A program made the position numbers and the translations under genes. Under the pieces are notes generated by a model that ran no database searches, was not told the origin of the DNA, and saw only the letters and a program-made list of their open reading frames with translations. DNA of 48,159 nt from Candidatus Latescibacterota bacterium (GTDB lineage Bacteria > JAAXHH01 > JACQVL01): contig JACQVL010000080.1 in NCBI GenBank assembly GCA_016209865.1, forward strand, positions 1-48,159, written 5' to 3'. Positions 21,476-22,964 of the stretch are shown piece after piece (position 1 is the first letter of the stretch; each line of letters starts with the position of its first letter).

Positions 21476-22531
21476 TCACACGACTCGAATCGGCGGATGT
21501 CCTGGCTCGGTCAGTTCGCCGATCGCGGTCGCATCCGGCACGCCGGCACGCCGGAGTTCCTCCAACAGACGGTCCGTCTTCTCGTTCGGGACGGCGATGA
21601 GCAGACCGCCGGACGTCTGCGCGTCGCACAACACCGTCCGCATCTCCTCGGAGAGGGACTCCGCCCAGGCAACGCTCTCGCTCTCCTCTAAGAAGCGCCG
21701 GGTGGCGGCCGTCCCGCCCGGAATAACCTTGTCAGCGGCCAACGGCCAGGCTTCAGGGAGGACGGGGACGCGCTCCGCCACGACCCGAGCGCCCACCCCG
21801 CTCCCCGCGACCATCTCACGCAGATGGCCGAGCAGCCCGTAGCCCGTCACATCCGTACACGCATCCACCCCGACGGCGATCATCGCCTCGGACGCCGCCC
21901 GGTTGAGGCGCGTCATCAAGGCCGTCGCGCGAGCGATCGTCGCCTCGTCCACCCGTTCGCGCTTGATGCCGGTGGTGATGATCCCGATGCCTAACGGCTT
22001 GGTCAGGATGAGCACATCGCCAAGCCGGCCTCCGGCGTTCGTGATGATGCGATGCGGGTGGATGAGGCCGGTGACCGCCAGGCCATACTTCGGCTCCGGG
22101 TCGTCGATGCTGTGGCCGCCGATGATCGTCACCCCGGCCTCGTGTGCCTTGTCCGCCCCGCCGCGCAGGATGTCGGACAGCAGGTCGAGGGGTAACTGCT
22201 GCGCGGGGAACGCGACTAAGTTGAGGGCGGTGAGCGGGCGTCCGCCCATCGCGTAGATGTCGCTCAGCGCGTTCGCGGCAGAGATCGCCCCGAAGCTGTA
22301 CGCATCGTCGACGATCGGGGTGAAAAAATCGACCGTCTGGACGAGCGCCAGGTCGTCGCTCAGCCGGTAGACGCCCGCGTCATCGGCGGTGTTCGTCCCG
22401 ACGAGCACGTTCGCGTCCGTGATCGGGGGCAACCGGCGCAGCACCTGCGCCAGGTCCGCAGGGCGGAGCTTGCACGCTCACCCGGCCCCGTGGCTGAACG
22501 CCGTCAGGCGGACGTTCGGTCGATCAGACAT
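21476..22531 (-). CDS. selD: selenide, water dikinase (SelD) with selenocysteine at residue 18
   Basis: SelD makes selenophosphate from selenide and ATP, the selenium donor for Sec-tRNA. Read from ATG 22531, the protein begins MSDRPNVRLTAFSHGAG, then a TGA codon (22478-22480), then ACKLRPADLAQVL. This is the active-site loop (GAG-C/U-x-C-K) of SelD, so TGA encodes selenocysteine at the catalytic position. The rest is typical: TADDAGVYRLSDDLALVQTVD, then FGAISAANALSDIYAMGG, IIGGHSIDDPEPKYG and CDAQTSGGLLIA. The total of 351 residues is the normal length. A strict stop-codon reading would begin at the GTG at 22444 and lose the catalytic loop. The start overlaps the methylmalonyl-CoA epimerase stop by 8 bp. 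Functional selA, selB and selC must exist elsewhere. Confidence 0.95.
22433..22480 (-). promoter_or_regulatory. candidate bacterial SECIS region of selD
   Basis: Starting 27 bases after the first base of the UGA, the mRNA can fold CUGGCGCAG / CUGCGCCGG, nine pairs with one G-U, closing a GUG loop. Bacterial SECIS hairpins sit just downstream of UGA and present G and U in the apical loop, so position and loop fit. The stem is fully coding, and alternative folds with the preceding ACCUG are possible. Confidence 0.5.
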
Positions 22532-22964
22532 CGTGGGACTCCTGAGTCGTGGCGGGCTGCCGTTCGCAGAGTTCGATCAGCACCCCGTTCGTGCTCTTCG
22601 GATGGAGGAACGCGACGCGCGTGCCCCCGGCGCCGGGTCGCGGCTGGTCGTCGATCAGACGAAACCCGCGCTGGCGGACGGCGTCCAGGGCGGCGTCCAG
22701 GTCGTCGACCTCGAACGCCAGGTGATGGATGCCTTCCCCGTGCTTCTGGATGAACCGGGCGATCGGGCTGTCCGGGCTGGTGGCTTCGAGCAGTTCGATC
22801 TCCGTATCCCCGACCGGCAGGAACGCCACCTTCACCCGTTCCGAGCTGACCTCCTCCCGGCCGTGCAGGGAGAGGCGGAGGGTGTCGTGATAGAGCGTCA
22901 ACGCGGCGTCCAGGCTGTTGACCGCGATCCCGATGTGCGCGATGCGGGGAAAAGGGTGACTCAT
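22524..22964 (-). CDS. mce: methylmalonyl-CoA epimerase
   Basis: This 146-residue vicinal-oxygen-chelate (glyoxalase-fold) protein interconverts (R)- and (S)-methylmalonyl-CoA. Two beta-alpha-beta-beta-beta modules are visible. Metal and catalytic residues are in IAHIGIAVNSLDAAL (His at about 10), EIELLEATSPDSPIARFI (the family's E-L-L-E motif), GEGIHHLAFEVDDLD (HH) and GVLIELCE (final Glu). IARFIQKHGEGIHHLAF is diagnostic for the epimerase over other glyoxalase-fold proteins. It sits in a run with the methylmalonyl-CoA mutase large subunit and overlaps selD by 8 bp. The pair supports a propionyl-CoA/succinyl-CoA route; the carboxylase is not in this window. Confidence 0.93.
   Translation of the reverse strand: MSHPFPRIAHIGIAVNSLDAALTLYHDTLRLSLHGREEVSSERVKVAFLPVGDTEIELLEATSPDSPIARFIQKHGEGIHHLAFEVDDLDAALDAVRQRGFRLIDDQPRPGAGGTRVAFLHPKSTNGVLIELCERQPATTQESHDV

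Follow-up and report, generated by a model that had tools for sequence, protein, structure and literature searches.

Selenide, water dikinases (SelD) with selenocysteine (Sec) at the catalytic position have long been known; they account for 19% of the SelD genes in a reference set (PMC4561486). They are well documented, and their presence in several lineages was pointed out in the initial annotation of the DNA studied here. Sec-containing SelD or SPS proteins are found in many bacteria, in some archaea and, as SPS2, in eukaryotes. The E. coli enzyme (3u0o) is a full-length homologue of the SelD described below and has the same SHGAGxxCK loop, but carries cysteine where the selD gene of our window, a stretch of 48,159 nucleotides from a Candidatus Latescibacterota bacterium, has TGA.

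This gene lies on the minus strand at 21476..22531, from a start codon ATG at 22531-22529 to a stop codon TGA at 21478-21476, with a single in-frame TGA between them at codon 18 (22478..22480). Read as Sec, this codon gives a predicted product of 351 residues with Sec18 at the catalytic position. When the TGA is translated as a residue, the protein matches TIGR00476 over its full length (395.9 bits, cut-off 125) and NF002098 at 383.6 bits (cut-off 299), and contains the Pfam domains AIRS and AIRS_C. Alignment with E. coli SelD (E=4e-81) places the TGA opposite the catalytic Cys, the loops reading RLTAFSHGAG[U]ACK in the window and RLTQYSHGAG[C]GCK in E. coli; since the residues 5' of the TGA also align, the upstream segment is coding. 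Among relatives, position 18 and Lys21 of the loop GAGUACK are invariant columns, position 18 being Sec or Cys in every aligned row. These alignments agree with the earlier recognition of SHGAG and ACK as flanks of the SelD catalytic loop, in which Cys or Sec is invariant.

The frame proposed in the initial annotation is correct to the base at every coordinate. It had also been anticipated that an automatic caller would start at GTG 22444 and lose the active site, and a table-11 ORF finder does just this, returning only the portion of selD that begins there. The gene model is thereby corrected, as automatic annotation would discard codons 1-29, the active site among them. The truncated frame is what speaks for a real nonsense mutation, which would leave either a pseudogene or a shorter protein, begun at GTG 22444 and devoid of the catalytic loop. 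Such a mutation is exceedingly unlikely, however, given that translation and alignments show conserved, open coding on both sides of the TGA, that the loop residues SHGAG and ACK are intact, and that the ATG is preceded at 7 nt by a good Shine-Dalgarno-like sequence, AGGAG (22539..22543, minus strand), whereas GTG 22444 has no obvious ribosome-binding site. By chance, a nonsense change would strike the catalytic codon of a 351-codon gene in about 1 case in 351.

TGA occupies the catalytic codon in 66 of the 92 SelD genes inspected and a Cys codon in the other 26 (window included), a ratio that is not an estimate of frequency, the genes having been ranked by how closely they resemble an alignment made up mostly of Sec forms. 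The sample comprises 80 named SelD loci from GTDB genomes (55 TGA, 25 Cys) and 12 stand-alone SelDs from a second genome search, the window's among them (11 TGA, 1 Cys). A relative from the same order, G001, has TGA in its SelD too. In a quick tree the Sec and Cys forms are intermixed, with 11 changes needed, and the window SelD falls in a mixed part, its nearest neighbours being Sec rows, with no supported clade. A reversal from Cys to Sec, which would be rare, was considered and set aside in view of this placement.

Could the true codon be TGC or TGT, and the enzyme a Cys-type SelD misread through a sequencing or assembly error? A single base separates TGC from TGA, and a close homologue with 54% identity, L024, does have Cys at this codon. 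Elsewhere in the same genome bin (L261:7615, plus strand, contig C47), moreover, an open reading frame is split by one TGA (RDG-U-LHSGDLG). We take this frame to be acyl-CoA synthetase-like, with homologues that presumably have Trp at that point, and its TGA is probably a nonsense mutation or an assembly error rather than Sec; it probably arose from TGG, and a lone erroneous TGA is thus conceivable in this assembly. Against such an error in selD stand the position of the TGA, at exactly the codon where relatives most commonly have TGA, and the presence in the same genome of selB, tRNA-Sec and another selenoprotein gene. We therefore regard an error as very unlikely.

The machinery is found in the bin to which the window belongs (3.75 Mb in 356 contigs, 83% complete, 1.7% contamination). 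Contig C14 carries a full-length selB (C14:6944-8833; 337 bits, cut-off 242) and, 64 bases past its stop codon, a tRNA-Sec with a UCA anticodon (C14:8916-9009; 68 bits). This contig and C80, discussed below, match the window in GC content and tetranucleotide make-up (r 0.98-0.99). A genome devoid of selA, selB and selC had been named as evidence that would speak against Sec; what the bin contains is selB and tRNA-Sec. The stronger claim, that a Sec-type SelD proves an active system of selA, selB and selC, went too far as regards selA, the canonical form of which was not found in the 83% complete bin. Searches of the bin likewise returned no SepSecS, so that the SepSecS route was rejected, no selenouridine synthase YbbB and no 16S gene. 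Most genomes of the same order have both tRNA-Sec and canonical SelA. Genome G011 was considered as a natural Sec-minus case and rejected, as its selB lies at a contig end and the missing tRNA-Sec is probably a gap.

A scan by coding bias of the fetched stretches (about 0.87 Mb, 23% of the bin) revealed one further convincing selenoprotein gene; a search for other TGA-containing genes had been proposed in the initial annotation. It lies on the minus strand of contig C23 (L237:3847-4224), begins MRITLYEKPTUSKCREAV, and encodes an ArsC-like protein (TIGR00014, 107.1 against 106.05), that is, a glutaredoxin-type arsenate reductase with a UxxC motif, in which Sec substitutes for the catalytic Cys. 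The ATG is preceded by a GGAGG ribosome-binding site, and the gene has a canonical-looking SECIS hairpin with an E. coli-like loop, GGUU, which we take to sit about where the SECIS loop of E. coli fdhF sits. Arsenate reductases of the Sec type are already known (PMC1088965, PMC13188914). Formate dehydrogenase, which the initial annotation had put forward as such a gene, proved otherwise; the best FdhA in the bin, on contig C206, carries Cys and was rejected as a co-client. Within the window, the in-frame TGA candidates checked included no other gene with a Sec-like context.

These observations also bear on the idea that TGA has been reassigned throughout the genome, for example to Trp, and does not encode Sec at all. 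Single in-frame TGAs, and nothing more, point that way. Both selD itself and the adjacent epimerase gene end in TGA, the scan of about 0.87 Mb found no general read-through of TGA, and a dedicated tRNA-Sec is present; reassignment is accordingly improbable in the extreme. Given the selB and tRNA-Sec genes of the bin and its further selenoprotein gene with a canonical-looking SECIS, the sequence data indicate that the UGA of selD is almost surely decoded as Sec. The proposal that SelD is itself a selenoprotein is supported by the same three features, together with TGA being the commonest state in relatives.

A candidate bacterial SECIS hairpin, CCUGCG-GACCUGG-CGCAGG, follows the selD UGA (22444..22462, minus strand). 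It has a 6-bp stem and an apical loop, GACCUGG, that starts with G and lies at 22 to 28 bases past the UGA, with 21 nt between, which is off the position used by most Sec-SelDs. Its stability is not significant (z-score about -1.1 to -1.8), 26 of 200 shuffles of a 43-nt piece folding at least as well, and a 9-bp hairpin immediately 3' of it is an alternative. Among relatives the region 3' of the codon has a mean fold of -9.2 kcal/mol for Sec genes versus -6.8 kcal/mol for Cys genes, a difference (P=0.014) that is not corrected for relatedness or GC. Folding of the bases after the TGA, proposed earlier as a check, thus gives a hairpin that is compatible with a SECIS but not a strong one, and constitutes modest evidence. 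The case for Sec in SelD rests on protein conservation and the machinery, not on the hairpin; the position and stability of the hairpin count against it, as does the failure to find canonical SelA or SepSecS.

The only SelA match above cut-off in the bin (351 bits), on contig C80 (L182:3892-5310), is a paralog in which GGDGLVGGPECG aligns with SGDKLLGGPQAG of the E. coli and Aquifex SelA proteins. This substitution, GDK to GDG, implies loss of the lysine that holds PLP, which we take to be Lys295 in E. coli. Most genomes of the order have two SelA genes, one canonical (GDK) and one without the lysine, which is replaced by Gly or, in G001, by Glu. In a tree the lysine-less forms and the copy from the bin make up a separate clade with 100/100 support, several of its branches being long. 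No GDK form was found in the 83% complete bin, and canonical SelA likely lies in the missing 17%, the unassembled part of the genome. It is highly improbable that the organism lacks canonical SelA altogether and that the C80 paralog makes Sec-tRNA by a changed mechanism, supplying SelD and ArsC.

The lysine-less paralog is more unusual than the Sec-SelD, and the literature searched yielded no paper about it. Homologues occur in the same order at L171, L173-L178, L180, L185-L189 and L198, with GDK changed to GDG, GGG or SE; the gene is kept across the order, with canonical SelA elsewhere in most genomes. Wherever the contig stretch covers both of its neighbours, one is a DUF2064/CofC-like gene and the other encodes a class II aldolase. 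At L181:10001-15261 and L182:1566-6016, and also at L175 (G013) and L197 (G011), it lies in a PVM-like bacterial microcompartment cluster with class II aldolase, acetate kinase, PTAC (PduL), a BMC-H shell protein, aldehyde dehydrogenase, HU and ThiL. In most g3 genomes it accompanies the aldolase, with acetate kinase, PTAC, BMC and AldDH not seen nearby. A 'selA' annotation by itself is no proof of Sec synthesis.

We conclude that this is very probably an ordinary bacterial selD with Sec as catalytic residue, its UGA decoded by SelB and tRNA-Sec with a hairpin aiding. SelB and tRNA-Sec would read through the UGA at 22480-22478, the hairpin just downstream assisting, and the resulting Sec18 enzyme would convert ATP and selenide into selenophosphate. 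Selenophosphate would donate the selenium from which the cell makes its own Sec-tRNA, so that SelD would partly supply its own production.

The gene upstream, encoding methylmalonyl-CoA epimerase (22524..22964, minus strand; TIGR03081, 161.5 bits, cut-off 115), overlaps selD by 8 bases. The overlap, described earlier as an unusual context, is real, but its significance was overstated; no epimerase homologue is present in 109 further loci fetched around genes for SelD or SelD-like proteins, a conserved pairing was rejected on these grounds, and the overlap looks local.

Other arrangements occur in the same order. In family f3 (L035-L047) a Cys-type SelD domain replaces the stand-alone Sec-SelD, mostly in open frames of >700 aa, L035 showing an N-terminal FAD-type oxidoreductase; most f3 genomes with this domain retain tRNA-Sec. 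These oxidoreductase-SelD fusions resemble the window protein in their SelD domain, with a CAGCGAK loop, and differ in the N-terminal oxidoreductase and the Cys, the window SelD being stand-alone and Sec-containing. Compared with the known Sec-containing SelD and SPS proteins, the window SelD shares the family, the position of Sec and the machinery. It raises no new question about SelD; it also puts the Sec trait on record for a bacterial family that has been little sampled. Sec-type SelDs are common and familiar among bacterial selenoproteins, and the window SelD joins them as an ordinary new member, differing from those described only in its host lineage and its neighbours, the upstream epimerase gene among them.
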